From: Croceicoccus marinus
Lineage (GTDB): Bacteria; Pseudomonadota; Alphaproteobacteria; Sphingomonadales; Sphingomonadaceae
NCBI RefSeq assembly: GCF_001661675.2
Contig: NZ_CP019603.1
Location: forward strand, 1-64,000
Direction: 5' to 3'
DNA length: 64,000 nt
Within the stretch, counting starts at the first letter, position 1. Each line of letters begins with the position of its first letter. Positions 22,872 to 46,806 of this stretch are shown here, piece by piece. Position numbers and translations under genes: made by a program. The notes below the pieces were generated by a model. That model ran no database searches and was not told the DNA's origin. It saw nothing but the letters and a program-made list of their open reading frames with translations.

Positions 22872-22886
22872 ATTGGTCCGACCTTT
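22872..22886. promoter_or_regulatory. GntR(FadR/PdhR-like) operator candidate, site 1, upstream of aldehyde dehydrogenase
   Basis: ATTGGTCCGACCTTT has the TGGTNNNACC core of FCD-subfamily GntR regulators, with a mismatch in the right arm. It lies 255 bp before the ALDH start. Weaker on its own than sites 2 and 6. Confidence 0.45.
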
Positions 22887-23140
22887 CAAACATATTGCCG
22901 ATCCGAAAATCGATCATTACGTATTAGCTATACGCACACTGAGAGATGCGTAATCGATGAGAGGTTTGGCATCACCCATTCCCCGCATTCGAGATGAGCG
23001 AACAGCGTCGACCATCGTGACGAGACTCGCTGGCTAAGCACTGTCTGACCGATGGTGTTTGATGCGGCGCGCCGGTCAGACGGTTGCAACGAAAAAAGAC
23101 TAATGAGCTGGCAAATAGTGCCTGCGAGATGGAGAGAGCT

Positions 23141-24646
23141 ATGAACGAAACGGCTTTTGCGCAGACGCTGCATGGTAAAAAAGGGCACGAAGTCCACCTT
23201 CCACGCAATCGCATGCTGATCGGCGGAGAATGGACCGAGAGCGCCGATGGGCAATGCATCGATGTGGAGGATCCGGCCACCGCCGAAATCTTCACCCGCG
23301 TCCCGGCAGGTTCCGCCGAGGATATTGACCGTGCTGTTAGCGCCGCGCGAAAGGCATTTGAGTCTGCAAGCTGGGCGCGCATGCGTCCGCTCGACCGCGG
23401 CAAGATAATCGAGAATATCGCCCGCAAGATCGAGGAGCACGCCGGCGAACTGGCACTTCTGGAAAGTTACGACAACGGCAAGGCGGTGCATCACGCGCTA
23501 GCCGTCGACGTGCCGGCGGCGATCGACATTTTTCGCTACATGGCGGGCTGGACGTCCAAGATCGGCGGGCAGGTCAATCCGATTTCCGGCGACGGGCAGC
23601 AATACCACAGCTATTCCGTGCGCGAGCCAGTGGGCGTGGTCGGCCAGATCGTGCCATGGAACTATCCGCTGGCGATGGCCGCGTGGAAGATTGCCCCGGC
23701 TCTGGCGGCAGGCTGCACGATCGTCCTGAAACCCTCGGAAGTTACGCCGCTGACCGCGCTTCGGCTGGCTGAACTCGCGCTCGAGGCCGGTTTGCCCGAA
23801 GGCGTGCTCAACGTGGTCACGGGGTACGGTCAGGATGCCGGGCAGGCTTTGGTCGCACATCCCGGCGTGGACAAGATCGCCTTCACCGGTTCGACAAGGG
23901 TCGGCAAGCAGATCGTGCGCACCGCTGCCGATGATCTGAAACGCGTGACTTTGGAGCTCGGCGGTAAATCGCCTTCGCTGATCTTTGCCGATGCGGACCT
24001 CGAAAAGGCTACGCTCGGCGCCGCGCTCGCCATCTTTTTCAATTCGGGGCAGGTGTGCCTCGCCGCCTCGCGCCTGTTCGTCGAACGATCGGTCTATGAT
24101 CAGGTGGTCGAGGGCATCGCAAAGGTGGCGCAAGGCTTCAAGCTGGGTCATGGCCGTGATCCGGAAACGATGCTGGGGCCGCTGGTGTCGCGTGCGCAGC
24201 AGATCCGCGTGCTCGACTATATCGAACAGGGCCGGCAGTGCGGCGCCGAAGTCGTCACCGGCGGCGGGACCGGCGGCAAGGACGGCTATTTTGTAGAGCC
24301 GACGATCTTCGCCAATCCGAACCGCGATGCCAGCATCGTGCGCGAAGAGATCTTCGGTCCGGTTCTTGTCGCGACGCCGTTCGACGATGTCGAGGAGGTG
24401 GTGAAGGCTGCCAATGACACGCGCTTTGGGCTGGCGGCCAATATCTGGACCCGCGATCTTTCGCGCGCGCATCTTACCGCACGTCAACTGCAGGCCGGCG
24501 TGGTCTGGATCAACACCCACGGCATGAACGATCCTTCCGCGCCTTTTGGCGGCGTGAAGGAATCCGGCTGGGGCCGCGAGGTCGGGGAAGAGGGCTTGCT
24601 GCACTACACCGAGACCAAGACGGTGACCGCTCTGCTTGGCGAATGA
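23141..24646 (+). CDS. NAD(P)-dependent aldehyde dehydrogenase
   Basis: Oxidises an aldehyde to the acid. VPWNYPLAMAAWKIAPALAA and KPSEVTPLTALRLAELALEA form the cofactor site; LELGGKSPSLIFADAD holds the general-base Glu and FNSGQVCLAASRLFVERS the catalytic Cys. ATG 23141 (MNETAFAQTL) follows GAGAGAG, giving 501 residues; earlier in-frame ATGs at 23084 and 23129 have no better SD. It is followed by a small Cys-rich ORF and a zinc alcohol dehydrogenase, a natural alcohol-to-acid pair. Confidence 0.93.
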   Translation: MNETAFAQTLHGKKGHEVHLPRNRMLIGGEWTESADGQCIDVEDPATAEIFTRVPAGSAEDIDRAVSAARKAFESASWARMRPLDRGKIIENIARKIEEHAGELALLESYDNGKAVHHALAVDVPAAIDIFRYMAGWTSKIGGQVNPISGDGQQYHSYSVREPVGVVGQIVPWNYPLAMAAWKIAPALAAGCTIVLKPSEVTPLTALRLAELALEAGLPEGVLNVVTGYGQDAGQALVAHPGVDKIAFTGSTRVGKQIVRTAADDLKRVTLELGGKSPSLIFADADLEKATLGAALAIFFNSGQVCLAASRLFVERSVYDQVVEGIAKVAQGFKLGHGRDPETMLGPLVSRAQQIRVLDYIEQGRQCGAEVVTGGGTGGKDGYFVEPTIFANPNRDASIVREEIFGPVLVATPFDDVEEVVKAANDTRFGLAANIWTRDLSRAHLTARQLQAGVVWINTHGMNDPSAPFGGVKESGWGREVGEEGLLHYTETKTVTALLGE

Positions 24647-24806
24647 GCGCGAACATGGCTGCCTTCACAACAGGAAAAGAAGGGAGACATGAGTGAATGA
24701 GTTGTTTTTCGACGTGTTTGGCGGCGTGTAGGCAGCGTGCTCACCGCTGCGATCGCCATGCGACGATGGCCAGGACGCAGAAAGACTCGTTCGAAGACAC
24801 AGTTCC

Positions 24807-24962
24807 GTGAATTGGAACGATCTGCGTGAAAAGCTTCCCGCATGCGCCGAATGCGCAACGTTTAAATTCGCGATCGGCCAACGCGACCAGATGGTCGAGT
24901 GCTGCCGCAATCCAAAGGCGATTGAGGATACGACCATGATCGTCGGGCCGATTTGCGCCTGA
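24807..24962 (+). CDS. Candidate Cys-rich small protein between aldehyde and alcohol dehydrogenase genes
   Basis: A GTG-started frame of 51 residues. It contains LPACAECATFKF, VECCRNPKAIED and ends VGPICA: five cysteines (CxxC, CC, C). About 70% of codons end in G or C by eye, as in the neighbouring genes. Its stop lies 24 bp before the alcohol dehydrogenase ATG. In the same frame, upstream of a TAG at 24729-24731, a short GTG-started VNELFFDVFGGV follows AAGAAGGGAGA. Whether either is translated is unknown and no family is recognised. The rest of the 340-bp gap shows nothing else. Confidence 0.35.
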   Translation: MNWNDLREKLPACAECATFKFAIGQRDQMVECCRNPKAIEDTTMIVGPICA

Positions 24963-24986
24963 CGCAGAAGGATCAAGGAGAAGAAC

Positions 24987-26081
24987 GTGAAGGCTGCCAT
25001 ACTCAATAACCTGGACGGTACGTTTCAGGTCGGCGAAATCGAAATCGACGAACCCCGCGACCACGAGGTGCTGGTCGAGGTGAAGGCATCGGGCCTTTGC
25101 CATTCCGATCTTCACTTTGCCGAGACCGATTTCGGCGTGCCGCTTCCCGCCGTGTTGGGGCACGAACTGGCCGGCGTGGTCATCGCGGTCGGTCCCGAAG
25201 TGCGCGAATTCGAGATTGGCGACCATGTCGTCGGCTCGCTTATCCAGTTCTGTGGTCATTGCCGCGCCTGCAATTCGGGCAAGACCTATCAATGCACCCA
25301 TCCAGAAGAAACGCTGCGCGCCGATGAGGGTGAGAAGCCGCGCCTGCGAGGTGAGAGCGGGGCCGTCACGCAAGTTTTCGGTACGGGTGCCTTTGCGGAA
25401 AAGGCGCTGGTGCATGAAAACCAGCTTGCCAAGGTGCCAAAGGAACTGCCGTTCGCACAGGCCTCGCTGCTGGGCTGCGGCACGATCACCGGGGCAGGTG
25501 CAGCGATCAATACCGCTTCTGTCCGCCCGGGCGATACGGTTGCCGTGATCGGCATTGGCGGCGTCGGGCTTAACGTTATTTCGGGTGCGAAGCTGGCTGG
25601 CGCAGGGCGCATTGTGGCGATCGACATGCAGCCAAGGAAGGAAGAGCTTGCCCGCAAGTTCGGTGCGACCGATTTCATCGATGCGTCTTCCGGCAATTCT
25701 GTCGAAGCGTTGCGCACGCTTATACCGGGCGGCGCGGATCACGTTTTCGAGGTCGTGGGCATCAAGGCTACATCGGAGCAGGCGATCCAGATGGCCCGCA
25801 AGGGCGGGGGCGCCTATATGATCGGGGTCCATGCGCCGACATCGACCATCGATGTCAATGTCACGGTCGACCTGTTGACCAATCAGGTTGATCTCCGCGG
25901 TGTCTATATGGGTTCGACTAATATCAAGCAAGACATCCCGATGTATGCCCAGCTGTACTTGCAGGGTAAGCTCAACCTCGATGACCTGATCTCGCGCGAG
26001 ATCGGGATCGAGGAGATTAATGAGGCCTATACGGAGCTGAAGGGCGGTGCGATCGCCCGCAGCGTGATTACCTCGTTCTGA
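24987..26081 (+). CDS. Zinc-dependent alcohol dehydrogenase (medium-chain family)
   Basis: Oxidises an alcohol to an aldehyde with NAD(P)+. 364 residues. GLCHSDLHFAETDFG and LGHELAGVVIAVGPEV carry the catalytic-zinc Cys, His and Glu. CGHCRACNSGKTYQC holds the four structural-zinc cysteines. VAVIGIGGVGLNVISGAKLA is the Rossmann nucleotide site, with IDMQPRKEELAR after it, the Asp suggesting NAD preference. ATG follows AAGGAGAAGAAC. The protein lies nearest the class III-type group; the substrate is unknown. It shares a transcription unit with the aldehyde dehydrogenase and is followed by a strong bidirectional terminator. Confidence 0.92.
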   Translation: MKAAILNNLDGTFQVGEIEIDEPRDHEVLVEVKASGLCHSDLHFAETDFGVPLPAVLGHELAGVVIAVGPEVREFEIGDHVVGSLIQFCGHCRACNSGKTYQCTHPEETLRADEGEKPRLRGESGAVTQVFGTGAFAEKALVHENQLAKVPKELPFAQASLLGCGTITGAGAAINTASVRPGDTVAVIGIGGVGLNVISGAKLAGAGRIVAIDMQPRKEELARKFGATDFIDASSGNSVEALRTLIPGGADHVFEVVGIKATSEQAIQMARKGGGAYMIGVHAPTSTIDVNVTVDLLTNQVDLRGVYMGSTNIKQDIPMYAQLYLQGKLNLDDLISREIGIEEINEAYTELKGGAIARSVITSF

Positions 26082-26160: not shown

Positions 26161-27204
26161 TCAGGCCGCCATGCCCTGACCTTCTTCAGCCTCAGCCATA
26201 GCGCTGAGCAGGCGGCGAGCCTGGTTCACGGCGCCGTCGCTGGCAATGCCGACGAAGGTACGACCAGGATCGTCATTGATCCGTTCCTGCTGTAGCGCCA
26301 GCGTCTGTTCGTCTTCGGTGATCGTGTCGAAGAACTGATCGAAAAGCTTGTCAGGCACGCCGGTCGCCGGATCGGCCGTGGTGCAGATAGTCCACAAATA
26401 ATGGCTGGTCGTTTCCGTTTCGGGCGTGATGAAATGGTTGTTCGCCAGTTCAAAGCCATTGTCGCGGCGGCCTTCATAGGCGCCGGTCCCCGCATCGCAG
26501 CCACCCGCATTGACGCGCAGGGTCATGCCCCGGGCCGGTTCGAAGCGCACTTCCTGCCAGCGATCGACGCGTCCCTTGAAGCCGCCCGCGTCGATATAGG
26601 AACGCGGCGGGACCGAATTGGGCATCTTGCGCAGAAGTTCCACGCGCTTGCCGTCGAACTCTACCTTGGTTTCCGCGCCATAATGCTGTTCGGGGTTACC
26701 GCCGATCGTGCCCGCGTGGATGTAAGGCACATGGGTCAGGTCCATGATATTGTCGACGATAAGCTGCCAATCGGCATTCACCGGGAAATTATAGGGTCGC
26801 CACGTCCACTTTGGATCGTTGTGTTCCGGACTGTCGATGATCTGTGCGGGATCGGCCAGTTCGGCATCGCCCATCCAGATCCAGATCAGATGATCCTTTT
26901 CGACAACCGGATAGCTGCGCACATTGGCGGCAGGCGGAATACGTTCCTGATTAGGAATGCGCGCGCACTTGCCGTCGGCTTCGAATTCGACTCCGTGATA
27001 GGCGCAGCGGATGCGACAACCGTCTACGTGGCCGGAACTGAGGGGCATCGCACGGTGACTGCACCGGTCTTCCAGTGCGGCGATTTTGCCGTCTTCGGTG
27101 CGAAAGAGGACGACCGGTTTGTTCAGGAGCTTGCGGGCGAGTGTCTTGCCCGACTCGATCTCGGCGGCGAAGGCAGCGACATACCAGGTGTTCTTGATGA
27201 ACAT
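26161..27204 (-). CDS. Rieske oxygenase of the vanillate O-demethylase (VanA) type
   Basis: Single-component oxygenase subunits of this type hydroxylate or O-demethylate aromatic acids using electrons from a separate reductase. From ATG 27204 (MFIKNTWYVAAFAAEI) it has 347 residues. Rieske ligands are Cys48 and His50 (DRCSHRAMPL) and Cys67 and His70 (IRCAYHG). The iron site is IMDLTHVPYIHAG with His158 and His163. No VanB-type reductase adjoins it; the reductase at 36850 could serve it. It diverges from the acyl-CoA dehydrogenase gene, with GntR-type site 2 between them. The substrate is not predictable. Confidence 0.88.
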   Translation of the reverse strand: MFIKNTWYVAAFAAEIESGKTLARKLLNKPVVLFRTEDGKIAALEDRCSHRAMPLSSGHVDGCRIRCAYHGVEFEADGKCARIPNQERIPPAANVRSYPVVEKDHLIWIWMGDAELADPAQIIDSPEHNDPKWTWRPYNFPVNADWQLIVDNIMDLTHVPYIHAGTIGGNPEQHYGAETKVEFDGKRVELLRKMPNSVPPRSYIDAGGFKGRVDRWQEVRFEPARGMTLRVNAGGCDAGTGAYEGRRDNGFELANNHFITPETETTSHYLWTICTTADPATGVPDKLFDQFFDTITEDEQTLALQQERINDDPGRTFVGIASDGAVNQARRLLSAMAEAEEGQGMAA

Positions 27205-27552
27205 GAATCTCTCCAGATAATTCCTGCCGATCTGAGCGGCACTGTTCTGATCTGTATTTTCAGTATGCTGCCATGCTGCGCGCAAGCCAATTCCAATAGC
27301 ATAATGCCATAAGATTTTCGGGATGGAGGGGGCATGAAATTCAGCGCCGTTGTCGTGTGTAGGCGGGCGAGGCGCAATTTCACGGGTTCTGAATGGTATT
27401 TGCGAAATTGAATAATTTCGATTTGCTTAGATAATAAACCTACTAATTTCAATACGTTGATTGGCCGCCGGCAACGCAATTTTTCTCTAGCAGCCGGTTT
27501 GGAACGGCGCTCGCTTTGTCGCCTGCCTCAGATTGGCCGACATCACTCTTGC

Positions 27553-27567
27553 AATGGTAGGACCATT
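27553..27567. promoter_or_regulatory. GntR(FadR/PdhR-like) operator candidate, site 2, before acyl-CoA dehydrogenase
   Basis: AATGGTAGGACCATT is a perfect palindrome around a 3-bp centre. It lies 47 bp before the acyl-CoA dehydrogenase ATG and could also act on the divergent Rieske gene. The 410-bp gap (27205-27614) holds no other supported feature. Confidence 0.68.
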
Positions 27568-27614: not shown

Positions 27615-28751
27615 ATGGACTTCGAACTTCCCGATGAGATCAAGGATTTCTGCGAGGCGACAAAGGCCATCGTCAACGACCTGCTGCCGCTGGAGCGCGA
27701 ATTCGTTGAGACTGGCGTGGTCCCGCCGATCGTTCGTCAGACCCTAGTCGATAACGGATATTTCGGCATGGCCTTGCCCGAGGAATATGGCGGCCTTGGG
27801 CTTGGCGCTCTGGCGCAGGCTGCGGTGCAGATCGAGCTTGCGCGCCTTCCCCCCCAATTCTGGACCGAAATTCGCCCACTGATGGGTCCGGGCGCGAAGA
27901 ACATCGCCTATCACTGCACTGAAGCGCAGAAGGAGATGCTGATCCCGGGAATGGCAACTGGCGAAATTCCGGTAGCCTTCGCTCTCACAGAGCCGGGTTC
28001 GGGGTCTGATCCCGGTTCAATGCGCACCACCGCGACGCGCAATGCCGATGGCTGGGTGATCAATGGATCGAAGACCTATATCTCGAACGGCAAGAACGCG
28101 AAATTTGTCACGGTCTATGCCTACACGGACAAGAGCGCAGGTGCTCGCGGCGGCATCTCGGCCTTCTTGATGCCGGCGGATACGCCGGGCTTTTCGGTGT
28201 CGGGCGTGATCGAGCTGATGGGTACTTCGCCGGCCGTGTACGAACTGACATTCGATGAATGTCAGGTGCCTGCCGACGCTCTGATCGGCGAAGAGGGCAA
28301 GGGCTTCAGCTATGCGCTTGAATGTTTGAACGAAGGCCGCATGAATGTTGGCGCGACGGCAGTGGGAATGGGCGAATATGCGCTCGAACTTGCGACTGAA
28401 GAAGCGAAAGTGCGCCCGGCGTTCGGCAATGTCATCGCCGATTTTCAGGCAATTCGCCATTATCTGGCCGGTATGGCGACCGACATGCGTGCCGCGCGCC
28501 TGATCCTGCTCGATGCCGCATGGCGCTATGATCAGGGCGAAAAGCGCCGCGAACTGGCTTCGATGGCGAAGCTGTTCGCGACCGAGGCGGGTGGCCGTAC
28601 GGTCGATACCGCGCTGCAGATTTATGGCGGCGCGGGCTATTGCAAGGGCTATGCGATCGAACGGCTCTATCGCGATATCCGCATCACGCGGATTTATGAG
28701 GGTTCTTCGGAAATCCAGAAGAACACCATCGCAAAAGAACTGCTGCGCTGA
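27615..28751 (+). CDS. Acyl-CoA dehydrogenase
   Basis: FAD enzyme that forms a double bond in an acyl-CoA thioester and gives electrons to ETF. ATG 27615 (MDFELPDEIKDFCEATKAIV) gives 378 residues. EIPVAFALTEPGSGSDPGSM is the FAD/substrate loop. ALQIYGGAGYCKGYAIERLYRD and ITRIYEGSSEIQKNTIAKEL are the C-terminal signature, with the Glu of YEGSSE at the usual catalytic place. The etfB gene starts 29 bp later, so the enzyme and its electron acceptor are made together. Chain-length or ring-substrate preference cannot be read. Confidence 0.93.
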   Translation: MDFELPDEIKDFCEATKAIVNDLLPLEREFVETGVVPPIVRQTLVDNGYFGMALPEEYGGLGLGALAQAAVQIELARLPPQFWTEIRPLMGPGAKNIAYHCTEAQKEMLIPGMATGEIPVAFALTEPGSGSDPGSMRTTATRNADGWVINGSKTYISNGKNAKFVTVYAYTDKSAGARGGISAFLMPADTPGFSVSGVIELMGTSPAVYELTFDECQVPADALIGEEGKGFSYALECLNEGRMNVGATAVGMGEYALELATEEAKVRPAFGNVIADFQAIRHYLAGMATDMRAARLILLDAAWRYDQGEKRRELASMAKLFATEAGGRTVDTALQIYGGAGYCKGYAIERLYRDIRITRIYEGSSEIQKNTIAKELLR

Positions 28752-28780: not shown

Positions 28781-29527
28781 ATGAAGGCCCTGGTGCCCGT
28801 GAAGCGGGTTATTGACTATAACGTGAAGCCGCGTGTGAAAGCGGACGGCTCGGGCGTGGATCTTGCGAACGTGAAAATGAGCATGAACCCGTTTGACGAG
28901 ATCGCGGTGGAAGAAGCGATCCGGCTGAAGGAAGCGGGCAAGATCGACGAGATCGTGGCCGTCTCCATCGGCCCGGCGAAGGCGCAGGAGACGCTGCGCA
29001 CGGCGCTGGCGATGGGCGCGGATAGCGCGGTGCTGGTCGAGACGGACGACACCGTGGAGCCGCTCGCGGTGGCGAAGATCCTGAAGGCCGTGGCCGCAGA
29101 GGTCGAACCGGGCCTCATCATCCTGGGCAAGCAGGCGATCGACGATGATGCGAACCAGACCGGCCAGATGCTGGCTGCGCTGATGGATCTGCCGCAGGGC
29201 ACCTTTGCATCGAAGGTCGAGGTCGAGGGTGACAGCGTCAGCGTGACCCGCGAAGTCGATGGCGGGCTGGAGACGGTGAAGCTGTCGCTGCCTGCGATTA
29301 TCACCACCGATTTGCGCCTGAACGAGCCGCGCTATGCTTCGCTGCCCAACATCATGAAGGCGAAGAAGAAGCCTCTCGAGACCAAGACCCCGGCCGATTA
29401 CGGCGTGGATATCGCGCCGCGCCTGAAGACGCTGACCGTCGCCGAACCGCCGGTGCGGCAGGCGGGCATGAAGGTCGCCGATGTCGATGAACTGGTCGCC
29501 AAATTGAAGAACATGGGAGTCGCATGA
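28781..29527 (+). CDS. etfB: Electron transfer flavoprotein, beta subunit
   Basis: ETF takes electrons from acyl-CoA dehydrogenases. The beta subunit binds AMP. 248 residues. [40 protein letters not shown] and [20 protein letters not shown] are conserved ETF-beta blocks, with the ETF signature around [20 protein letters not shown]. It is the first of three coupled genes (etfB-etfA-ETF-QO). Confidence 0.96.
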
Positions 29528-30456
29528 TGAAGACGCTCGTTTATGTCGATCACGACAGTGCCAATCTGGGCGATGCGACCCTCGCCACCGTCACTGCCGC
29601 CTCGAAGCTGGGCGAAGTGCACCTGCTGGTCGCGGGCGCGGGCTGCGGCGCGGTGGGCGAAGCCGCAAGCAAGATCGCGGGCGTGGGCAAGGTCCATGTC
29701 GCCGACGATGCAGCCTTTGAACACCAGCTGGCCGAGAATGTCGCGCCGCTTGTCACCTCGCTGATGGATCATCATGACGCGGTGCTGTTCCCGGCCACGA
29801 CCACCGGCAAGAACATCGCGCCGCGCGTGGCGGCGCTGCTCGATGTCATGCAGATCAGCGACATCCTCTCGGTCGAGGGCGAGAAGACCTTCACGCGTCC
29901 GATCTATGCGGGCAACGCGATTGCGACCGTTGAATCGACCGATGCGAAGCTGGTCATCACCGTACGCGGCACTGCCTTCGACAAGGCCGAGGCCGAGGGC
30001 GGATCGGCTGCCATCGAGGCGGTCGCCTCCACCGGCGATGCGGGCAAATCCAGCTTCGTCGGCGCCGAGATCGCCAAGAGCGAACGCCCGGGACTGACCA
30101 GCGCCAAGATCATCGTGTCGGGCGGCCGCGCGCTGAAGGACAGCGAAACCTTCGAAAGCGTCATCATGCCGCTCGCCGACAAGCTCGGCGCGGGCGTGGG
30201 CGCATCGCGTGCTGCCGTGGACGCGGGCTATGTCCCCAACGACTACCAGGTCGGCCAGACCGGCAAGATCGTGGCACCGGAAGTCTATATCGCCATCGGC
30301 ATCTCGGGCGCGATCCAGCACCTTGCGGGGATGAAGGATAGCAAGACCATCATCGCCATCAACAAGGACGAAGACGCACCCATCTTCCAGGTCGCTGACA
30401 TCGGCCTCGTCGCGGATCTGTACAAGGCCGTGCCGGAGTTGACTGAAGGCCTATGA
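29524..30456 (+). CDS. etfA: Electron transfer flavoprotein, alpha subunit
   Basis: The alpha subunit holds the redox FAD. 310 residues. [20 protein letters not shown] and [20 protein letters not shown], followed by [19 protein letters not shown], are the FAD-binding signature of ETF-alpha. It begins in the 4-base overlap with etfB (two adjacent ATGs at 29524 and 29527) and overlaps the ETF-quinone oxidoreductase start by four bases. Confidence 0.96.
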
Positions 30457-35313: not shown

Positions 35314-35328
35314 AATGGTACAACCATA
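35314..35328. promoter_or_regulatory. GntR(FadR/PdhR-like) operator candidate, site 3, between TonB receptor and Rieske operon
   Basis: AATGGTACAACCATA has intact TGGTNNNACCA arms with one outer mismatch. It is 101 bp from the receptor start and 131 bp from the oxygenase start, placed to control both. Confidence 0.6.
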
Positions 35329-37869: not shown

Positions 37870-37937
37870 CAGAGCATCGATCCCGGTTTGATAGAGCCGC
37901 AAAGCGGCCGGCCGGTTCCAACGCAGGAGAGAGGATT

Positions 37938-39287
37938 TTGGCAGTTTCGCTGAGCAGCAATCAGCAGGGCGGTTTTCTCGATGCCCTGCCGCTGTCCTAT
38001 TACCAGATATGGTCGGTGCTGATGATCGCGGCGACCGTCGTGCTCGACGGGCTCGACAACCAGATGCTGGGCCTTGCCGCGCCATCGCTGATTGCCGAAT
38101 GGGACATAAGCCGGGATACGCTGGGCATGGTCTTTGCTCTGGGCTTTGTGGGCATGGCGATCGGCACGCTGGTCTCGGGCGTGATCGGCGATCTTGTCGG
38201 CAGGCGAGGGGCATTGCTGATCGGCGTGTCACTATTCGGCATTGCCACCTTGCTGACCGGATTTTCTACCGCGCTGTGGCAGGTCGCAGTGCTCAAGTTC
38301 CTGGCTGGCGCAGGGCTTGGCGGCGTACCCGGTACGGCGTCGGCCATGATCGCGGAATTCACGCCTGCGCGCTGGCGTAGCCAGGCGGTGACTTTCGGCG
38401 TCGTCTGCGTATCGATTGGCGGCGTGCTGGGCGGTCTTGCGGCGGCGGCGATCCTGCCTTCGCTCGGCTGGCGCTGGCTCTTCTATCTGGGCGGCGCGAT
38501 CACCATAGCCTTCGTTCTCTATCTTCTACTCGTCCTGCCGGAATCCCCGCAATATCTGCTGGACAGCGGTAAGCGCCGGGTCGAATTCGAAAAGGTGATG
38601 ACGCGCATCGGCCATCCCGATCCCGCTTCGCTAAAGGCGCAGGGCGCGGGCGGAGAGGTTGAAAAAATGCCGTTTTCCGCGCTGTTCGGCGCGGCGCATC
38701 TGCGCGATACGCTCGCACTCGCGCTGGCGATGTTTTCGGGCATGTTCATGATCTACCTGATGTTCAACTGGGCCCCCACTATGCTGACGACCAGTGGCTA
38801 TGACCTGAAACTGGCCAGCCTTGGCTTGACCAGTTTCAACATGGGCGGGGTGATCGGCGCGATGCTGGCATCCTTCGCCATTATCAAGCTGGGTTCGCGC
38901 ATTACACTTGTCACCATGGCGCTTGTCGGCACGCTGGTTTGCACCGCGCTGGCGATCTTGCCGATGGGCGCAGGTGGCAACGAGAACGCCATGCTGGGCC
39001 TGCTGGTCGCTATGGGCCTGTTCGCCAGCGCCGCGCAATCGGCCATGTTCGCCGTGGGCGCCCACGCGTTTCCCACCGGCGTCAGGGCGCGCGGGCTTGG
39101 CACCATGGGACTGTCCGGGCGTGCAGGCGCCATTGTCAGCGCATTGGCCGGCGCATGGCTTATCGGCGGCGGCGCACAGATGTTCTTCGGCGCGCTGGCC
39201 GTGCTGATGCTGGTCAATGCGATCGGGTTTCTAATCGTGCAAAGCCATATTCCGCGGCTTGACCGCAACCAGGAGAAGCCCGCGTGA
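37938..39287 (+). CDS. MFS transporter, aromatic acid:H+ symporter (AAHS)-like
   Basis: Inner-membrane uptake carrier, about 449 residues with twelve predicted helices. DGLDNQMLGLAAPSLIAEWD in the first helix and GVIGDLVGRRGALLIGVSLF in the 2-3 loop (the GxxxDxxGRR motif) fit the AAHS group (PcaK-like), as does LPESPQYLLDSGKR in the centre. A TTG start at 37938 fits best: AGGAGAGAGG lies a few bases before, and no ATG precedes the conserved start. Its stop overlaps the GMC gene by four bases. It should import an acidic substrate or intermediate. Confidence 0.87.
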   Translation: MAVSLSSNQQGGFLDALPLSYYQIWSVLMIAATVVLDGLDNQMLGLAAPSLIAEWDISRDTLGMVFALGFVGMAIGTLVSGVIGDLVGRRGALLIGVSLFGIATLLTGFSTALWQVAVLKFLAGAGLGGVPGTASAMIAEFTPARWRSQAVTFGVVCVSIGGVLGGLAAAAILPSLGWRWLFYLGGAITIAFVLYLLLVLPESPQYLLDSGKRRVEFEKVMTRIGHPDPASLKAQGAGGEVEKMPFSALFGAAHLRDTLALALAMFSGMFMIYLMFNWAPTMLTTSGYDLKLASLGLTSFNMGGVIGAMLASFAIIKLGSRITLVTMALVGTLVCTALAILPMGAGGNENAMLGLLVAMGLFASAAQSAMFAVGAHAFPTGVRARGLGTMGLSGRAGAIVSALAGAWLIGGGAQMFFGALAVLMLVNAIGFLIVQSHIPRLDRNQEKPA

Positions 39288-40951
39288 CGCACAGTTTCGA
39301 TTATATCGTCATCGGCTCGGGTTCAGCAGGCAGCGTGCTGGCCAATCGCCTGTCTGCCGACCCCACCATTTCGCTCGCCCTGATCGAGGCGGGGCCGTCC
39401 GATCGCAAATGGCCGGTCAACATCAAGACGATCATGCCGGTCGGTAATATCTTCCTGATTCCGCATGCGCGTTACAACTGGCAGCAGCAGTTGAGCGGCG
39501 GCGATGCGATCGACGGGCGCGTCATCGGCTTTCCGCGCGGCAAGCTTTTCGGTGGATGCAGCGCGATCAATGGCGGCGTCTATATTCGCGGACAGGAAGA
39601 AGATTACGCAGGCTGGGTGCAGGCAGGCAATCCCGGCTGGGGCTGGGACGATGTACTTCCCGTTTTCAAGCGGCTCGAAAACTACCACGGCCCTGACAAG
39701 TCATGGCACGGCAGGGGTGCGGAACTGGATGTCGAAAAGCCCGCATCGTTCAACCCGATCACTGCCGCGATCATCGACGCTGCGGTAGAGGCAGGGCATT
39801 TCCGCAACGAGGATTTCGCTAGCGAACGCAAGGATGGCTTTGGGCGCTATGACCTCAACCAGCGGCGCGGGACGCGCCTTTCGGCGGCCCGCGCTTTCCT
39901 CCACCCGGCACTTGGACGACCGAACCTCAGCGTTTTCGATGAAACGCTGGTACGGCGCATCATCATCAATGATGGCCGCGCCACCGGGATCGAGATCGAG
40001 CGCGAAGGCAAGCGCGAGATCATGACCGCCAAAAGCGAAGTGCTAGTCAGCGCGGGCGCGACAAATTCGCCGCATCTGTTGATGCTCTCGGGCATTGGCG
40101 ACAGGGATGATCTGGTCAAGGTGGGCGTCGAGCCGGCACACCATCTTCCGGGCGTCGGCGCGCATCTGCAAGATCATCCCACCGTGCATATCTCGGTTGA
40201 AAATCCGACGGGGGAATCCTATGCAAACTCGCGTTCGGCGCTGGCCCGCAATGCCTTCGCGCCGTTCATATATGCTTTGAAACGCGAAGGCATGTTCGCT
40301 TCGAACGTGGCGGAGTGCGGCGGCTTCGTCTGCACCGACGGCAGCGGCAGGCCCGATATCCAGATGACCTTCCTGGTCGGGTTGAAGGGCAATGCCCGCG
40401 TGGTGCCCAGCGACCATGGCTTCATGGCGCTGATCCAGCTACTTCGCCCCAATAGCGAGGGGCGCGTGCGGCTGGCGAGCAACAGGGCCGAGGACAAGCC
40501 GATCATCGAGCCCAATTTCTTTGACGATCCGCGCGACATGGCAACGCTTATCGCCGGTTTCCGCGAGGCGCGGCGCATTTTTGCGCAACCTGCGCTGGCC
40601 GCCATGCGCGGCAAGGAGATCGAGCCTGGGGCCGAGCATCTCAGCGACGAAGCGCTCGACAAGGCGCTGCGCAAGATCGTCAATACTGCCTATCACCCCA
40701 CCGGCACCTGTAAGATGGGGCCTGCCAGCGATCCGCTAGCCGTGGTCGATGACCGGTTGAGGGTGCACGGGATCGACGGGCTGCGCGTGATCGATGCCTC
40801 GGTCATGCCCTCGATCATCAGCGGCAATACAAGCGCGCCCACGATGATGATCGCCCAGCGCGCCGCCGATTTCATTCTGGAAGAGCGCAAATCGCATAAT
40901 TCGCAAGCGGCCGAAACGGTCCGGGTTGCAGAAACGGAGCTTCAGTCATGA
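39284..40951 (+). CDS. GMC-family FAD oxidoreductase (alcohol dehydrogenase type)
   Basis: Oxidises a primary alcohol to an aldehyde with FAD. 555 residues. YIVIGSGSAGSVLANRLSAD is the ADP-binding site; FPRGKLFGGCSAINGGVYIR and AGATNSPHLLMLSGIG are the two GMC signatures. YHPTGTCKMGPASDPLAVVD has the catalytic His and SGNTSAPTMMIAQRAADFI the second active-site Asn. Relatives oxidise polyethylene glycol, choline and lignin-derived alcohols; none can be singled out. Four-base overlaps with the MFS gene and the aldehyde dehydrogenase place it in one tight operon. Confidence 0.93.
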   Translation: MTHSFDYIVIGSGSAGSVLANRLSADPTISLALIEAGPSDRKWPVNIKTIMPVGNIFLIPHARYNWQQQLSGGDAIDGRVIGFPRGKLFGGCSAINGGVYIRGQEEDYAGWVQAGNPGWGWDDVLPVFKRLENYHGPDKSWHGRGAELDVEKPASFNPITAAIIDAAVEAGHFRNEDFASERKDGFGRYDLNQRRGTRLSAARAFLHPALGRPNLSVFDETLVRRIIINDGRATGIEIEREGKREIMTAKSEVLVSAGATNSPHLLMLSGIGDRDDLVKVGVEPAHHLPGVGAHLQDHPTVHISVENPTGESYANSRSALARNAFAPFIYALKREGMFASNVAECGGFVCTDGSGRPDIQMTFLVGLKGNARVVPSDHGFMALIQLLRPNSEGRVRLASNRAEDKPIIEPNFFDDPRDMATLIAGFREARRIFAQPALAAMRGKEIEPGAEHLSDEALDKALRKIVNTAYHPTGTCKMGPASDPLAVVDDRLRVHGIDGLRVIDASVMPSIISGNTSAPTMMIAQRAADFILEERKSHNSQAAETVRVAETELQS

Positions 40952-42429
40952 ACGCAAACACGCCCATCACCTCGGTCATCGCGAAGCGCGATCAGGACAT
41001 GCTGATCAGCGGCAAGCGCGTGCCCGCCGTTTCCGGCCAGCGTTTCGAAACACGCAATCCTGCCACGGGCGAACTGCTGGCCAATGTCGCGCAGGGCGGC
41101 GCCGAAGATGTCGACCGCGCCGTGAAAGCCGCGCGAGAGGCGTTGAGCGGCCCGTGGAGCCGGATGAAGCCCGCCGAGCGGCAGGCGATCATGCTGCGCC
41201 TTGCCGATCTGGTCGAAGAGAACTGGGACGAGCTTGCCATGCTCGACACGCTGGACCTTGGCGCGCCGCTATCGCGTACGCGGCTGGGCAAGGTCAGGGC
41301 GGGCGCATTGCTGCGCTATTATGCCGGACAGGCCCCGCTGATTTCGGGCGAGACGCTATCCAATTCCGTACCCGGCGATGTGCTGAGCCATACGCTGAAA
41401 GAGCCGATCGGCGTGGTAGCCGCGATCAACCCGTGGAACGGTCCCATCGGCATGTCGGTATGGAAGTCCGGCCCTGTCCTGGCCACCGGTTGTACGCTGG
41501 TGATGAAACCCGCCGAACAGACGCCGCTGTCAGCGCTGCGCTTTGCCGAGCTGTGCCTTGAGGCGGGCGTACCCGATGGCGTCATCAATGTCGTCACCGG
41601 CCTTGGCGATGCGGGCGCGGCGCTTTCTGCCCATCCGGATGTCGACAAGATCGCGTTCACCGGTTCGACCGGCGTGGGTCAGAAAATTATCGAGGCTGCG
41701 GCCCCGACGATGAAGCGAGTCACCGTCGAACTGGGTGGCAAATCGCCCAATATCGTCTTTGCCGATGCCGATCTCGACAAGGCGGTGCCGGCCGCGGCCA
41801 ATGCGGTCTTTGCCAATGCCGGCCAGATCTGCAGCGCGGGCACGCGCCTGTTCGTCCAGTCCTCGATCCACGATGAATTCATTGAGCGTCTTGTCGAACA
41901 CAGCCGCACCATTCGCGTTGGCGATCCGCTTGACCCCGAAACACAGATCGGTCCGGTCGTGTCTCAGGCGCAGATGGAGCGCATCCTTTCTTTCATCGAC
42001 GGGGCCGAGGATGAGGGCGCCAGCCCGCTGTTGGGCGGTGCGCGCAAGGCGGGCGAAGGATATGACGCGGGCTATTTCATCGAACCCACCATTTTTGGCA
42101 ATGTCACCGACGGTATGACGATTGCGCGCGAAGAGATCTTCGGGCCGGTCCTATCGGCTTTTTCCTTCGACACGGTCGATGAGGTGCTGACCCGTGCCAA
42201 TGCGACAAGCTTCGGCCTTGGCAGCGGCGTGTGGACCAGCAATCTTGCCACCGCGCATAAGATGGCGCGCGGCATCAAGGCCGGTTCGGTCTGGGTTAAC
42301 TGCTACCAGATGCTCGACCCTGGCGTTCCTTTCGGCGGATATAAGTTGAGCGGATTCGGGCGCGAGTCCGGCCCGCATCACATCGAGGAATATCTGGAAA
42401 CGAAGGCGGTCTGGATCAACCTCGACTGA
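40948..42429 (+). CDS. NAD(P)-dependent aldehyde dehydrogenase
   Basis: 493 residues. AINPWNGPIGMSVWKSGPVL, MKPAEQTPLSALRFAELCLE and FTGSTGVGQKIIEAAAPTM form the cofactor site. ELGGKSPNIVFADADLDK has the general-base Glu and NAGQICSAGTRLFVQSS the catalytic Cys. It overlaps the GMC gene by four bases, so it probably oxidises the aldehyde that enzyme makes. It is the last gene of the oxygenase-reductase-MFS-GMC-ALDH run. It shares under 50% identity by eye with the other ALDH in the island. Confidence 0.94.
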   Translation: MNANTPITSVIAKRDQDMLISGKRVPAVSGQRFETRNPATGELLANVAQGGAEDVDRAVKAAREALSGPWSRMKPAERQAIMLRLADLVEENWDELAMLDTLDLGAPLSRTRLGKVRAGALLRYYAGQAPLISGETLSNSVPGDVLSHTLKEPIGVVAAINPWNGPIGMSVWKSGPVLATGCTLVMKPAEQTPLSALRFAELCLEAGVPDGVINVVTGLGDAGAALSAHPDVDKIAFTGSTGVGQKIIEAAAPTMKRVTVELGGKSPNIVFADADLDKAVPAAANAVFANAGQICSAGTRLFVQSSIHDEFIERLVEHSRTIRVGDPLDPETQIGPVVSQAQMERILSFIDGAEDEGASPLLGGARKAGEGYDAGYFIEPTIFGNVTDGMTIAREEIFGPVLSAFSFDTVDEVLTRANATSFGLGSGVWTSNLATAHKMARGIKAGSVWVNCYQMLDPGVPFGGYKLSGFGRESGPHHIEEYLETKAVWINLD

Positions 42430-42447
42430 TCCGACAGGGCGCGTGGG

Positions 42448-43665
42448 TCAGATCCACGTGCCCGTGAGATCGGGGTTGGATGTGCGTTCGCGCGCGGCCT
42501 CTTCCAGCTTTTCGAAGAACAGGCGCTGGGTCGCTGTGGGTCGCCAGCTGCGCCGCGTGGTGATCCCCACCATGCGGCGGCTGCCTTCCAGCGGCTTGCC
42601 AATCTGCGTCAAAAGCCCGCTGCGGATCTGCAGCGCGACCTGATCGGGCGACAATAGCGTCAGCAGGTTCGAGTAGGTCAGCAGGCGGCCGATGATCATC
42701 ACCGATCCGCATTCGATCTGCGTTTCGGGCCTTGGCCCTTCGGCAAAGAACCGTTCCCAATGTGCCCTGAGCGGGGCGTCGGCGGGCGCCACGATCCATG
42801 GATAGGACCGCAGCTGGTCCATGGTCGGCCTTTCCACCGATGCAAGCGGGTGCTGGCTGCCGGCGGCGACGACCAGAAGGTCCTCGATAAGCGGACGCTG
42901 ATATAGGTCGGCGATCTCGTGGGGGCGAAGTGCACCCACGATCATGTCGATGGCGCCATCGCGCAGCGGCTCCACAAGCTCGCTCCAGCTGCCTTCCAGT
43001 ACCTTGAACGACGCCTTTGGCACTTCCTTGGCGATATCGGCCATGGCGCGCGGCACGATATAGGGGCGAGCGAGCGGCAGCGCGCCGAAGGAGATCATTT
43101 CGCTGCGGCTGTCGCTGTCGAGCGCGAGATCGACCAGCGCCGCCTGAATTTCGGCAACGGCAAGCCGCGACCCGCGCGCAAGCTTTTTGCCTGCTGCATT
43201 CAGCCACACTGCCCGTCCGCGTCGTTCGACCAGATCGGTGCCGATGACCAGCTCCAGATCGCCCACCGCGCGATGGACAGCCGTTTGCGATATGGCAATG
43301 CTGCGCGCTGCTTCGGCAAAGCTGCCGGCATCCGCAAGCGCCAGAAAGGCGCGCAGCTGCGTCATCGTCATGAGCCGTTCGGGATTGTTGAACACATTGG
43401 TCAGGCCTTGGGCGCTGTCGGCCAGATGTTTCAGCGCGGCCTCTGTCCGTTCGATCACGATGCGACCCATGGCGGTGGGGATCATGCCGCCAGAACGCCG
43501 TTCGAACAGCGTATAGCCGAACTGGCGTTCAAGCTTGGCAATGCCTTGTGTCAGGGCGGGTTGGGAAAGGTTCACCAGGGAACCTGCCGCGGTGATACTG
43601 CCGTGTTCGCGGATGGCCACCAGCCCGCGCAGGTGCCGGATGTTGATCTCGAAAACTTCGGTCAT
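42448..43665 (-). CDS. LysR-family regulator with two tandem helix-turn-helix domains
   Basis: Normal LysR proteins have about 300 residues with one N-terminal winged helix. This one has about 405. Residues about 8-67 read RHLRGLVAIREHGSITAAGS and SQPALTQGIAKLERQFGYTL followed by FERR. Residues about 100-160 repeat the plan: MTQLRAFLALADAGSFAEAA, SQTAVHRAVGDLELVIGTDL and VERR. A normal effector domain follows. ATG 43665 or a GTG at 43692 may be used. It converges on the aldehyde dehydrogenase operon and is likely a local regulator. A weak hairpin at 42437-42463 lies at the convergence. Confidence 0.9.
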   Translation of the reverse strand: MTEVFEINIRHLRGLVAIREHGSITAAGSLVNLSQPALTQGIAKLERQFGYTLFERRSGGMIPTAMGRIVIERTEAALKHLADSAQGLTNVFNNPERLMTMTQLRAFLALADAGSFAEAARSIAISQTAVHRAVGDLELVIGTDLVERRGRAVWLNAAGKKLARGSRLAVAEIQAALVDLALDSDSRSEMISFGALPLARPYIVPRAMADIAKEVPKASFKVLEGSWSELVEPLRDGAIDMIVGALRPHEIADLYQRPLIEDLLVVAAGSQHPLASVERPTMDQLRSYPWIVAPADAPLRAHWERFFAEGPRPETQIECGSVMIIGRLLTYSNLLTLLSPDQVALQIRSGLLTQIGKPLEGSRRMVGITTRRSWRPTATQRLFFEKLEEAARERTSNPDLTGTWI

Positions 43666-43723
43666 TTCCTCAACCCGCTCTCGGTCCGGCACCTGATTGT
43701 TCCGATGTGTCTCTCGATAGAAC

Positions 43724-44905
43724 TTATAGCATCATGCCTTGAGAGCGATATGTCTCGATCTCGTCGTCCGGTAAATCTAATATGTCGTGAAGGATGGCGC
43801 CGCCATCCTCGCCCAGCGCGGGCATGTGATCGCGGGCATGGGCGGCCGAATTGGACATTTTGAAAGGAGGGTTGGTCACTTTGAACTGGCCGGCACCGTC
43901 GTCCAGCGTGGTAAAGGCCTGGCGTGCTGCCAGTTGCTCGTCCTCCATCACCTCGGTGACGTTGCGATAGACAGCGCAGGGCACGCCTTTTGCCGATAGC
44001 TGTGCTTCGGCCTGTGCCGAACTGTGCTTCATGGTCCAGCTCTCGGCTTCGGCCAGCAGCGCATCCCAGTTTCGATTGCGATCGGCATTGGTGGCAAAGC
44101 GCGGATCGTCGGCCAGATCTTCACGCTCCATTGCTTTTACCAGGCTCAGGAAATTGCCGGGGCTGGTGGGGGCGACCATGATGAATCCGTCGGCGGTGCG
44201 CAAAGGTTTGTAAAGCGGGCGGCGCTGATCGAGAGGCTGCTGCGCGGTCTGCGTTTCATACACCAGCATGCCGACCATCGCTTCCAGCATGGACACATCG
44301 ATGAACTGGCCCGCGCCGGTCCGTTCGCGTTGGAAGAGCGCGGTCTGGATCGCGCCAAAAGCGTGGGTGCCACCAAGAACGTCAGCGATGAAGATGCCGC
44401 TGGTTGCCGGCTTGTCCGCATTGTCCTGATATTCAAGATTGGTCATGTCGAATCCGCTGCTGGCATGGATGACCGGCGCATAGGCGGGGGAATGGGCCTT
44501 GGGCCCTTGTTGGCCATAGCCTGAGATCGAGCAGTAGATCAGGCGCGGATTGGTTTTGGCCAGCGTTTCATAATCAAGGCCGAAACGGGCCATCACGCCG
44601 GGGCGGAAATTTTCGACCACGATGTCACACTGGCTGGCCAGCTTGCGGATGGTCTCCTGCATGGCAGGGTTCTTCAGGTCGCAGGCAAGACTGCGCTTGC
44701 CGGCGTTGAGCTGTGCGAAATAGCGGCTCTTGCCATCGCGCAGCGGCGGACGGGCGCGGACCTGATCGCCGCCTTTCATCGTCTCCACCTTGATGACCTC
44801 GGCGCCAAGATCGGCCAGCATGCGAGTGGCGAACGGACCTGCCATCACTGCCGTGAAATCCAGCACCCTGATCCCATCAAGGGCGCCTGCCATCCGATCG
44901 TCCAC
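43724..44905 (-). CDS. Class III (CaiB/BaiF family) CoA-transferase
   Basis: Moves CoA between carboxylic acids; this would activate an acid made by the aldehyde dehydrogenases. 393 residues from a GTG at 44905 with GGAGAG before it; ATG 44893 is possible. GIRVLDFTAVMAGPFATRML and LGAEVIKVETMKGGDQVR are the family's N-terminal CoA-binding blocks. LNAGKRSLACDLKNP is conserved, and the catalytic Asp is expected in the ISGYGQQGP to GFDMTNLEY part. GntR-type site 4 is directly upstream. No CoA-ligase gene lies in the island, so this may be the sole activation step. Confidence 0.9.
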   Translation of the reverse strand: MDDRMAGALDGIRVLDFTAVMAGPFATRMLADLGAEVIKVETMKGGDQVRARPPLRDGKSRYFAQLNAGKRSLACDLKNPAMQETIRKLASQCDIVVENFRPGVMARFGLDYETLAKTNPRLIYCSISGYGQQGPKAHSPAYAPVIHASSGFDMTNLEYQDNADKPATSGIFIADVLGGTHAFGAIQTALFQRERTGAGQFIDVSMLEAMVGMLVYETQTAQQPLDQRRPLYKPLRTADGFIMVAPTSPGNFLSLVKAMEREDLADDPRFATNADRNRNWDALLAEAESWTMKHSSAQAEAQLSAKGVPCAVYRNVTEVMEDEQLAARQAFTTLDDGAGQFKVTNPPFKMSNSAAHARDHMPALGEDGGAILHDILDLPDDEIETYRSQGMML

Positions 44906-44930: not shown

Positions 44931-44945
44931 AATGGTCCTACCTAT
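44931..44945. promoter_or_regulatory. GntR(FadR/PdhR-like) operator candidate, site 4, before the CoA-transferase
   Basis: AATGGTCCTACCTAT keeps the left arm and ACC of the right arm. It starts 25 bp before the CoA-transferase start codon, in the likely promoter. Confidence 0.5.
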
Positions 44946-45007: not shown

Positions 45008-45742
45008 CTAGCGCGCCGCGTTTTCCTGCATGTGTTGGTGTATCCGGTCGAGGTGCGCGGTCATTTCCGCGACGGCTGCATCGCAGTCCCTCTCTCGCAG
45101 GGCCGTGACAAGGCGGTGGCGCGAATCGATCAAGGTTTCCTGCAACGTCTTGTAATTCGGCCCGGCCACGAAAGCCTGCAGGATCGATGATAAGGCCCCG
45201 ACGAACAACGCATAGATGCGGTTCCCCGTCGCTTCGGCCAGCACCTGATAGAACTCAACCGCGCAGTGATAGCGTGCCTCGACATCGGTCTCGATGCGGG
45301 TCTGCTCCACGATGGCGGCCAAGCGATCGAATTGGGCGTCGGTCCCGCGTTCGCACGCAAGGCGAACGACAGTGGCTTGAATGCTGAGACGCGCTTCGGT
45401 CAATTCGTCGAGCGAGACTTTGCCGAGATGGACGAAGTCCTGCATCGCCTGCGCGACATGTTCATTTTCTGCCGCCTGAATGAAGGCGCCGCCCTTCACG
45501 CCCTTTTCGTTGCGGATGATACCCGACATTTCAAGGCTTCGCAGCGCCTCGCGCACCGCGTTGCGGCTGATCTGGAAGCGGACGGCCAGTTCGCGTTCGG
45601 CCGGAAGCTTGTCACCTGCCTTTAACGTGCCATCAGCGACCATCTGGCGCACCTGATCGCATACCGCTTCGAATGCGCGCTGCGTCTTGATGGGTTTGAA
45701 GCCCCTCTTGATTTCGCTTCCTGCCGGTTTTGCCATGATCAT
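45008..45742 (-). CDS. GntR-family regulator, FadR/FCD subfamily; probable regulator of the island
   Basis: 244 residues. The winged helix (about residues 15-85) has LPAERELAVRFQISRNAVRE and ALRSLEMSGII. The C-terminal all-helical FCD domain has LTEARLSIQATVVRLACERG and ends HLDRIHQHMQENAAR, with His residues that bind a metal and an acid ligand in relatives. This subfamily binds TGGTNNNACCA sites. Six such sites lie in promoters from 22.9 to 46.8 kb, one 70 bp upstream of this gene. It is therefore the best candidate for the island's controller and is likely autoregulated. Which effector it binds is unknown. Confidence 0.92.
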   Translation of the reverse strand: MIMAKPAGSEIKRGFKPIKTQRAFEAVCDQVRQMVADGTLKAGDKLPAERELAVRFQISRNAVREALRSLEMSGIIRNEKGVKGGAFIQAAENEHVAQAMQDFVHLGKVSLDELTEARLSIQATVVRLACERGTDAQFDRLAAIVEQTRIETDVEARYHCAVEFYQVLAEATGNRIYALFVGALSSILQAFVAGPNYKTLQETLIDSRHRLVTALRERDCDAAVAEMTAHLDRIHQHMQENAAR

Positions 45743-45811
45743 GTTTTGCCAGTTGCTCTTGTTTTCCAGCTATCGGTATTGCCCGTTTCGCGTGCTGACA
45801 AGTGCTGGCCC

Positions 45812-45826
45812 AATGGTCCGACCTCT
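45812..45826. promoter_or_regulatory. GntR(FadR/PdhR-like) operator candidate, site 5, in the gntR-merR intergenic region
   Basis: AATGGTCCGACCTCT has the TGGTNNNACC core. It lies 70 bp before the gntR start and 120 bp before the merR-like start, consistent with autoregulation. Confidence 0.5.
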
Positions 45827-45945
45827 TGCCAACGGGCTTTCCGGCCCGGATCGGATCGATCGACCTTGATCTGGCGCAAAGGTGGCGGCCTGCGGGTGCA
45901 CGGGCATCTTGCGCAGTCCCGCATCGCGTGCTGTAGCCTTGGCCA

Positions 45946-46689
45946 ATGAAAATGAAGGAACTGGAAGAAGCAACCGGCGTGAACAGGGAAACGATACGCG
46001 TTTTCCTGCGCGAGGGTCTTGTTCCTCAACCGGAACGCAGCGGCAGGACCGTCGCCGAATACGGCGATCAGCATGTTGAAGCGATCCGCGCGGTGCGGCG
46101 GCTTCAGCGGGAGAACCGGTTGACGCTGTCCCAGATCAAGGAGCTTGTTGCCGGCAGCGGAACCAGCAAGCGGGTTGATGAGAGCGCCTTCGACGACCTG
46201 GAAACCCTGGTGGCTCACAGCGAAGCATCCGATCAGGCCCCTGTGCCCCTCGATTCTCTGGTCAAGCGTTATCCCAAGGCCCGACAGGACGCGAAGACAC
46301 TGAGCGAAATCGGGATTATCGAGATTATCGAGACCGATCAGGGTGAAGCCTTGAGCCTGACCTCGGCGGAACTGGTCAGCATCTGGGGCGATATGCGCAA
46401 CGCCGGTTTCAATGACACGCTCGATTATTCGCCGGACATATTGGGCTTCTATATCGAGGCTTCGGATTTCGTCGGCGCGTGGGAGGCCAAGACCTTTCTC
46501 GAACATGTCGAGGGCCGCAGGGACGTGGAGGAGGCAGCCCGCCTGGTCGAAGCGGCCTTGCCGCTCATGCTCAACTTTTTTGGCCTGATGCGCCGCCGCG
46601 CCTTTTTCCGGCATGTCGATGCGATCAGGCACGCGCGCGAAACGTCAGATAGCCGAACGCTGGATCATCGCGCGCATCGCGAACAATAG
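45946..46689 (+). CDS. MerR-family transcriptional regulator
   Basis: 247 residues. The N-terminal MerR winged helix reads MKELEEATGVNRETIRVFLR, then EGLVPQPERSGRTVAEYGDQ and LTLSQIKELVAG. The C-terminal 170 residues are helical, without the Cys ligands of metal-sensing MerR proteins, and are not assigned to a known ligand domain. It is divergent from gntR. No clear SD precedes the ATG at 45946 or 45952. Target genes are unknown; the P450 gene downstream on the same strand is 200 bp away. Confidence 0.8.
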   Translation: MKMKELEEATGVNRETIRVFLREGLVPQPERSGRTVAEYGDQHVEAIRAVRRLQRENRLTLSQIKELVAGSGTSKRVDESAFDDLETLVAHSEASDQAPVPLDSLVKRYPKARQDAKTLSEIGIIEIIETDQGEALSLTSAELVSIWGDMRNAGFNDTLDYSPDILGFYIEASDFVGAWEAKTFLEHVEGRRDVEEAARLVEAALPLMLNFFGLMRRRAFFRHVDAIRHARETSDSRTLDHRAHREQ

Positions 46690-46791
46690 TCGCGCCATTC
46701 GATTTGTCTGCGGACATTCGATTATGCGAATCAACATCCTCCGATTTCCGCCGGATTAGCCCGATCGCATCGAGTCATGCGAGTTTCCGCC

Positions 46792-46806
46792 AATGGTTCG
46801 ACCATT
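46792..46806. promoter_or_regulatory. GntR(FadR/PdhR-like) operator candidate, site 6, before the P450 gene
   Basis: AATGGTTCGACCATT is a perfect palindrome around a 3-bp centre, with the same arms as site 2. It lies 86 bp before the P450 start. Confidence 0.68.

Follow-up and report, generated by a model that had tools for sequence, protein, structure and literature searches.

The first 64,000 bases of contig C2 of Croceicoccus marinus (the window; C2 has 761,621 bases, and the 4,109,188-base genome also includes contig C3 of 346,204 bases) carry a long series of oxidoreductase, transporter and regulator genes. The question is whether these genes form one pathway under a common switch. We propose that six short palindromic sites in the window are operators of the GntR regulator encoded at 45008-45742, and that this regulator controls the surrounding catabolic island (~22.9-50.7 kb) as one local regulon by repression; from the sequence we place the probability of this reading at about 0.78. 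The regulon would contain two TonB receptors, a major facilitator superfamily (MFS) transporter, a P450, two Rieske oxygenases, alcohol, aldehyde and GMC dehydrogenases, a CoA-transferase (coaT), an acyl-CoA dehydrogenase (ACAD) with its electron-transfer flavoprotein (ETF) chain, and gntR itself (Table 1). A preliminary description of the window had already suggested one FCD-type GntR regulon across the island, and this is now supported: in relatives with a GntR orthologue, the sites track the same genes in rearranged islands.

Sites, regulator and conservation in relatives

All six 15-mers lie exactly where they had been reported. Sites 2 and 6 are perfect palindromes (0 mismatches each), as described earlier, while site 3 has 1 mismatch and sites 1, 4 and 5 have 2 each. 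The last three had been said to have a damaged right arm. The mismatches are present, but the arm of site 4 is conserved at 9 of 11 coaT promoters. Given the likely start codons, all six sites are intergenic. The longest open reading frame (ORF) calls wrongly cover site 3, and likely starts were used instead; starts were chosen by eye for ALDH1, ACAD, TonB1 and P450, and that of the VanA-type Rieske gene is uncertain.

With a matrix built from the six sites, the six took ranks 1-6 within the window, and in leave-one-out matrices each omitted site ranked 2nd to 7th. Two site-like sequences, at 46685 (rank 10 in the window) and 2344 (rank 7), were not counted as sites. A sharp pattern that covers all six, AWTGGTNNNACCWHW, occurs at 7 places in the genome, 6 of which are the island sites, and at 0.005 places on average in island shuffles. 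The seventh place (C3:78193) lies inside a mercuric-reductase-like ORF and was set aside as a regulon member, being in coding DNA. The genome scan suggested in the preliminary description thus gave a single extra place, and such sites were not as frequent in coding DNA as in these promoters. Since the six sites served to build both the matrix and the pattern, it is their conservation in relatives that provides independent evidence.

A GntR match at E <= 1e-50 was found in 9 of 397 family genomes, including that of the window. We mapped genes and sites in 13 islands: the one described here; those of Croceicoccus G006, G011 and G012, Aurantiacibacter xanthus and Pelagerythrobacter aerophilus; those on plasmids of Croceibacterium atlanticum and Novosphingobium sp. 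KACC 22771 (plasmid records only); and those of genomes G069, G040, G356, G371 and G418. GntR orthologues of the nine non-Croceicoccus records are 57-92% identical. Counting a sharp-pattern place on both strands once, 39 of the 57 places in these nine records fall within the orthologous, partly rearranged island (A. xanthus 5/7, P. aerophilus 4/7, Croceibacterium 6/6, KACC 22771 4/5, G069 4/4, G040 4/6, G356 3/6, G371 4/7 and G418 5/9). The corresponding counts in Croceicoccus are 6/8 for G006, 5/7 for G011 and 6/6 for G012. Where no GntR match reached E <= 1e-50 (22 genomes scanned, ~82 Mb), the pattern has 47 places, with zero in two genomes; other GntR proteins may account for some of these.

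Gene order varies between the islands, and a site is found at coaT in 13/13 and at ACAD in 13/13. The TonB1-LigX gap holds a site in 11/13 islands. There is also one before gntR in 11/13, in a gap common to gntR and etfB in KACC 22771, G069 and G418. Site 1, at ALDH1-ADH, is kept in G006, G012, G011 and the Croceibacterium plasmid and is degenerate in A. xanthus. An ETF match in Novosphingobium humi (H3) sits in a different cluster and was not accepted as an island. In G371 an extra site (L084:5380) precedes another TonB receptor gene, whose product is 39% like TonB2; the core genes end ~45 kb away.

The GntR protein of the window has an N-terminal GntR winged helix and a C-terminal FCD domain (Pfam PF00392 and PF07729, both above cut-off), which places it in the FadR subfamily. 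In an alignment with E. coli FadR, the base-contacting residues Arg35, Arg45, Arg49 and Gly66 of that protein are all conserved. The six sites and their orthologous counterparts fit the operator type TKGT-N3-ACMA, although some arms end in ACCT rather than ACCA. PMC4494728 gives this sequence, with its 3-nt spacing, as the FadR-subfamily consensus, in agreement with the earlier statement that FCD-type GntR proteins bind such sites. Distant GntR homologues (37-45%) encoded on Variovorax, Cupriavidus and Pseudonocardia plasmids adjoin TGGT-N3-ACC(A/T) sites, some of which directly precede gntR-, LigX- or coaT-like genes. This type of switch therefore probably predates the island. The FadR, PdhR and LldR regulons share with the present system the GntR and FCD domains, the TGGT-N3-ACCA-type site, the contact arginines and the location of sites in divergent gaps. 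In contrast to those regulons, the targets here are a local 20-gene catabolic island with a P450, Rieske oxygenases and TonB receptors, and the GntR protein does not reach the NCBIfam cut-offs for the named members. Where some homologues have Phe-His at one FCD position, Tyr is found in the six island-type GntR proteins and in two distant homologues. That His is a metal ligand in other FCD proteins, so the effector mode may differ here.

Promoter geometry and alternative explanations

In aligned promoters, conserved blocks stand at the sites amid otherwise diverged DNA. The six ACAD promoters aligned, of which three come from close Croceicoccus relatives, all have CTTGCAATGGTAGGACCATTATGCTT without change. 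Of 11 coaT promoters compared, 8 have the asymmetric sequence ATAGGTAGGACCATT unaltered and a ninth has it with one change; TTGCA or TTGAC lies ~16-17 bp before it. In the C. marinus coaT promoter we read by eye an apparent -10 box at 44941-44946, overlapped by site 4, and a -35 box at 44963-44968. The edge of site 4 would then double as the -10 box, which explains its asymmetric arm. In the etfB promoters of four relatives, TTGACA-N16 (N17 in G356) runs into the site, which again overlaps the apparent -10 box. Because of this overlap at coaT and at the relatives' etfB, a repressor geometry is likely at both, and repression is the likely mode of action. A second AATGGAC(T/C)GACC-like site lies 20-21 bp, or about two helical turns, before the ACAD site in KACC 22771, G069, G418 and G371. 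Directly after site 3, at 35329-35340, the sequence A[T/A]TCCGATTGGGG recurs with little or no change in the eight LigX promoters compared and may be a promoter element or a LysR box.

Several observations weigh against control of the island by this GntR protein as a repressor. The loose motif is not enriched: at <=3 mismatches the window has 19 matches versus 14.7 expected, with 16/100 shuffles reaching 19, and at <=2 mismatches the genome has 56 places versus 46 for the reversed pattern. Such chance-level counts are what one would see if the six sites were an accidental accumulation of short palindromes, and our conclusions consequently rest on the sharper pattern and on the relatives. We consider an accident extremely improbable, since all but one of the sharp-pattern places in 4.1 Mb lie in the island and relatives with a rearranged gene order have the same sites before the same genes. 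The conservation has gaps. G356 and G040 have no site before gntR and none in the TonB1-LigX gap, a site in G040 lying instead between the MFS and VanB genes. No such site was found near the gene for the pAKD15 GntR homologue (39%), nor in a 46-kb Methylibium stretch with a GntR gene.

The LysR and MerR genes are likewise conserved, lysR in 13/13 mapped islands and merR in those with P450, and further FCD GntR proteins are encoded in the genome. The sites could thus be real and be bound by the island LysR or MerR, or by a GntR protein from elsewhere, with this gntR a bystander. We regard this as improbable. The TGGT/ACCA palindrome with 3-nt spacing is of the FadR-subfamily type as stated in PMC4494728, and gntR is central in the set and is itself preceded by a site in C. 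marinus. The sites are kept in G069, G356 and P. aerophilus, which have a partial MerR or none, and the 22 scanned sphingomonad genomes that lack the orthologue but have other GntR proteins show no such cluster.

All promoter boxes were read by eye and are themselves interpretations, and at the P450 and ALDH1 promoters the GntR site lies upstream of the -35 box, a position that equally fits activation. FadR activates at some promoters, and GntR might likewise be partly an activator, its upstream site recruiting polymerase at P450 and ALDH1 while coaT and etfB are repressed. The site ends 6-8 bp before TTGAC in P450 promoters, and in the gntR promoter it stands upstream of a conserved TTGT and a CAATACCGA stretch; both positions fit such a role. 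However, repressors bind upstream positions too, and the boxes depend on the same reading by eye. Partial activation seems unlikely to us, though it is compatible with repression elsewhere in the island and both can hold together.

A second operator at the entry promoters

Comparison of the P450 and ALDH1 promoters revealed a second operator, absent from the preliminary description, that begins 30 bp beyond the end of the GntR site in both. Its core, ACGTAT-N5-ATACG, occurs at exactly two places each in C. marinus, G006, G011, A. xanthus and the Croceibacterium plasmid, at one place (P450) in the KACC 22771 plasmid, and at none in G069, P. aerophilus, G040, G001 and G009. G040 has a wider-spaced version before P450. 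The longer form, YTACGTAW-N5-ATACGCA, was found in 5/397 family genomes at 8 places, all of them at P450 or ALDH1 promoters in genomes with a GntR orthologue. Each of the eight P450 promoters compared has TTGACN-N17 ahead of the second operator. On the Croceibacterium atlanticum plasmid (L053:42-2742) the ADH and ALDH1 frames are broken, yet the promoter retains both operators.

The merR gene (45946-46689), overlooked in the preliminary description, diverges from gntR, and the gap between them holds site 5. A full-length MerR is encoded in all ten P450-bearing islands. At E <= 1e-60 no P450 match was obtained in G069, G356 or P. aerophilus, where MerR is matched in part or not at all. By this association, among islands of which many are closely related and which are not ten independent events, MerR is possibly the regulator of the second operator and the first candidate for it. 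None of the observed copies of the operator precedes merR itself, and the placement fits a classical MerR activator poorly: the operator begins 17 bp downstream of TTGAC and covers the start region rather than lying between -35 and -10.

The earlier suggestion that GntR controls the whole set stands as regards one regulon over the island. With a second operator at P450 and ALDH1, and with merR and lysR present, GntR is probably not the sole regulator. We tentatively suggest, while rating it somewhat doubtful, that a FadR-type repressor acts over the whole pathway and that a second regulator (candidate MerR, acting at the transcription start) gates an entry module of CYP108-like P450, TonB2 and ALDH1, in a new terpenoid-type pathway present in several sphingomonad genera. 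Entry enzymes would then need two signals, for example the substrate and a downstream acid.

In the scheme that we infer, a GntR dimer on AATGGT-N3-ACCATT would block transcription in the absence of substrate, most clearly at coaT (and at etfB in relatives), until an acid or CoA ester of the pathway bound the FCD domain and released it. The entry promoters, P450-TonB2 and ALDH1-ADH, would be gated again at YTACGTAW-N5-ATACGCA by another regulator, possibly the island MerR. P450 would hydroxylate a p-menthane-like terpenoid or alkyl-aromatic, ADH and ALDH1 would convert the product to an acid, and CoaT and ACAD would start its breakdown.

The pathway and its genomic setting

Table 1. Candidate operators and genes of the island in the C. 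marinus window
Feature	Position	Strand	Remark
GntR site 1, ATTGGTCCGACCTTT	22872..22886	+	upstream of ALDH1-ADH
Second operator, TTACGTAT-N5-ATACGCA	22917..22936	+	ALDH1 promoter
Aldehyde dehydrogenase ALDH1	23141..24646	+	Pfam Aldedh
Zinc alcohol dehydrogenase ADH	24987..26081	+	Pfam
VanA-type Rieske oxygenase	26161..27285	-	Pfam Rieske + VanA_C
GntR site 2, AATGGTAGGACCATT	27553..27567	+	ACAD promoter
Acyl-CoA dehydrogenase ACAD	27615..28751	+	Pfam
EtfB, EtfA, ETF-ubiquinone oxidoreductase	28781..32105	+	Pfam
Short-chain dehydrogenase SDR	32130..32906	-	Pfam
TonB-dependent receptor TonB1	32928..35213	-	Pfam
GntR site 3, AATGGTACAACCATA	35314..35328	+	between TonB1 and LigX
LigX-type Rieske oxygenase	35459..36772	+	Pfam Rieske + LigXa_C
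VanB-type reductase, aromatic-acid-type MFS transporter, GMC oxidoreductase, ALDH2	36850..42429	+	
LysR regulator	42448..43692	-	two N-terminal helix-turn-helix domains
Family III CoA-transferase CoaT	43724..44905	-	Pfam
GntR site 4, AATGGTCCTACCTAT	44931..44945	-	coaT promoter, overlaps apparent -10 box
FCD-type GntR regulator	45008..45742	-	Pfam GntR + FCD
GntR site 5, AATGGTCCGACCTCT	45812..45826	-	gntR-merR gap
MerR-family regulator	45946..46689	+	Pfam
GntR site 6, AATGGTTCGACCATT	46792..46806	+	P450-TonB2 promoter
Second operator, TTACGTAT-N5-ATACGCA	46837..46856	+	P450 promoter, 17 bp after TTGACC
CYP108-like cytochrome P450	46893..48194	+	55% identity to P450terp
TonB-dependent receptor TonB2	48261..50657	+	Pfam

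The island P450 is identical to P450terp (CYP108A1) at 233 of 426 aligned positions (55%), above what we take to be the naming rule for CYP108 membership, at least about 40% identity. From this likeness, a p-menthane-like substrate is our best guess. A close known system is the alpha-terpineol system of Pseudomonas, with which the island shares a related P450 and the presence of a zinc ADH and an ALDH in the same regulon. In the terp operon a ferredoxin gene lies beside the P450 gene. Here the TonB receptor gene comes right after P450 with a gap of 66 bp, too short for a ferredoxin gene (ORFs were listed from 120 amino acids up), control is by an FCD GntR protein, and Rieske, GMC and CoA-transferase genes are extra. 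P450terp turns alpha-terpineol into 7-hydroxyterpineol, according to PMC7794910.

On the best reading, the order of steps would be methyl hydroxylation, acid formation, CoA transfer and acyl-CoA dehydrogenation, with the two Rieske oxygenases and GMC/ALDH2 acting further down. P450, TonB2 and ALDH1 stand in a row in G371 and G418. Since G069, G356 and P. aerophilus retain the core without P450, the core may also serve an acid that is imported directly. Among the NCBIfam matches listed, at most 25 for each island protein scanned, none reached its curated cut-off and no substrate was indicated. Ten flank ORFs of the G069, KACC 22771 and G040 islands added no pathway enzyme; they encode an oligogalacturonate-lyase-like protein, a TonB receptor, a transposase, two integrase-type proteins, an MFS protein, HipA, a sulfatase and two proteins without a match.

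Two further systems were considered. MdpJ/MdpK of Methylibium petroleiphilum, which we take to be the plasmid pair compared, also combines a Rieske oxygenase with a VanB-type reductase. The identities are 30% for LigX and 34% for VanB, the 46-kb plasmid stretch has no such site, and an MdpJ-like tertiary-alcohol role for LigX/VanB was rejected on both grounds. The polyethylene glycol operon of Sphingopyxis likewise unites a TonB receptor, a GMC dehydrogenase, an ALDH and an MFS protein; its regulator is reportedly of the AraC type, and it is not known to include P450 or Rieske genes.

The LysR protein (42448-43692) has two LysR-type helix-turn-helix domains in tandem before its substrate domain, 29% alike over 83 positions. 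Similar proteins of ~408 amino acids are common in sphingomonads, and we no longer regard the arrangement as an oddity; some carry JGI names as gallate-degradation regulators. The island is flanked by resolvase, IS-type transposase and integrase-core genes (20857-22616 and 53554-54237), as expected for a mobile island. At 56143-58072 a second acyl-CoA dehydrogenase gene adjoins a second FCD GntR gene, and no strict site of the sharp pattern was found there. Elsewhere in the window are genes for histidine use (urocanase, an aromatic amino acid lyase, two amidohydrolases and a UTRA-type GntR), a TonB receptor and two PepSY-TM proteins at 7514-19217, and copper-resistance genes at 4189-6447. PMC5740743 reports many genes for aromatic compounds on plasmid pCME4A9I of C. 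marinus E4A9T, of which the window is very probably the start, and the words 'P450' and 'terpen' do not occur in that text.

The preliminary description had spoken of an undescribed pathway. This is plausible, as no account of the cluster or its regulator was found in the literature searched, which covered few subscription journals; the substrate is a matter of likeness to P450terp. The kind of regulon is known, that of FadR; what is new is its target set and the double operator of the entry promoters. A generic list of oxidoreductases thereby becomes one testable pathway with a likely switch, and the regulon indicates which genes to delete first. The operator together with GntR provides a ready sensor for substrate screening. 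The two operators also locate the same pathway in other sphingomonads despite differing gene order.

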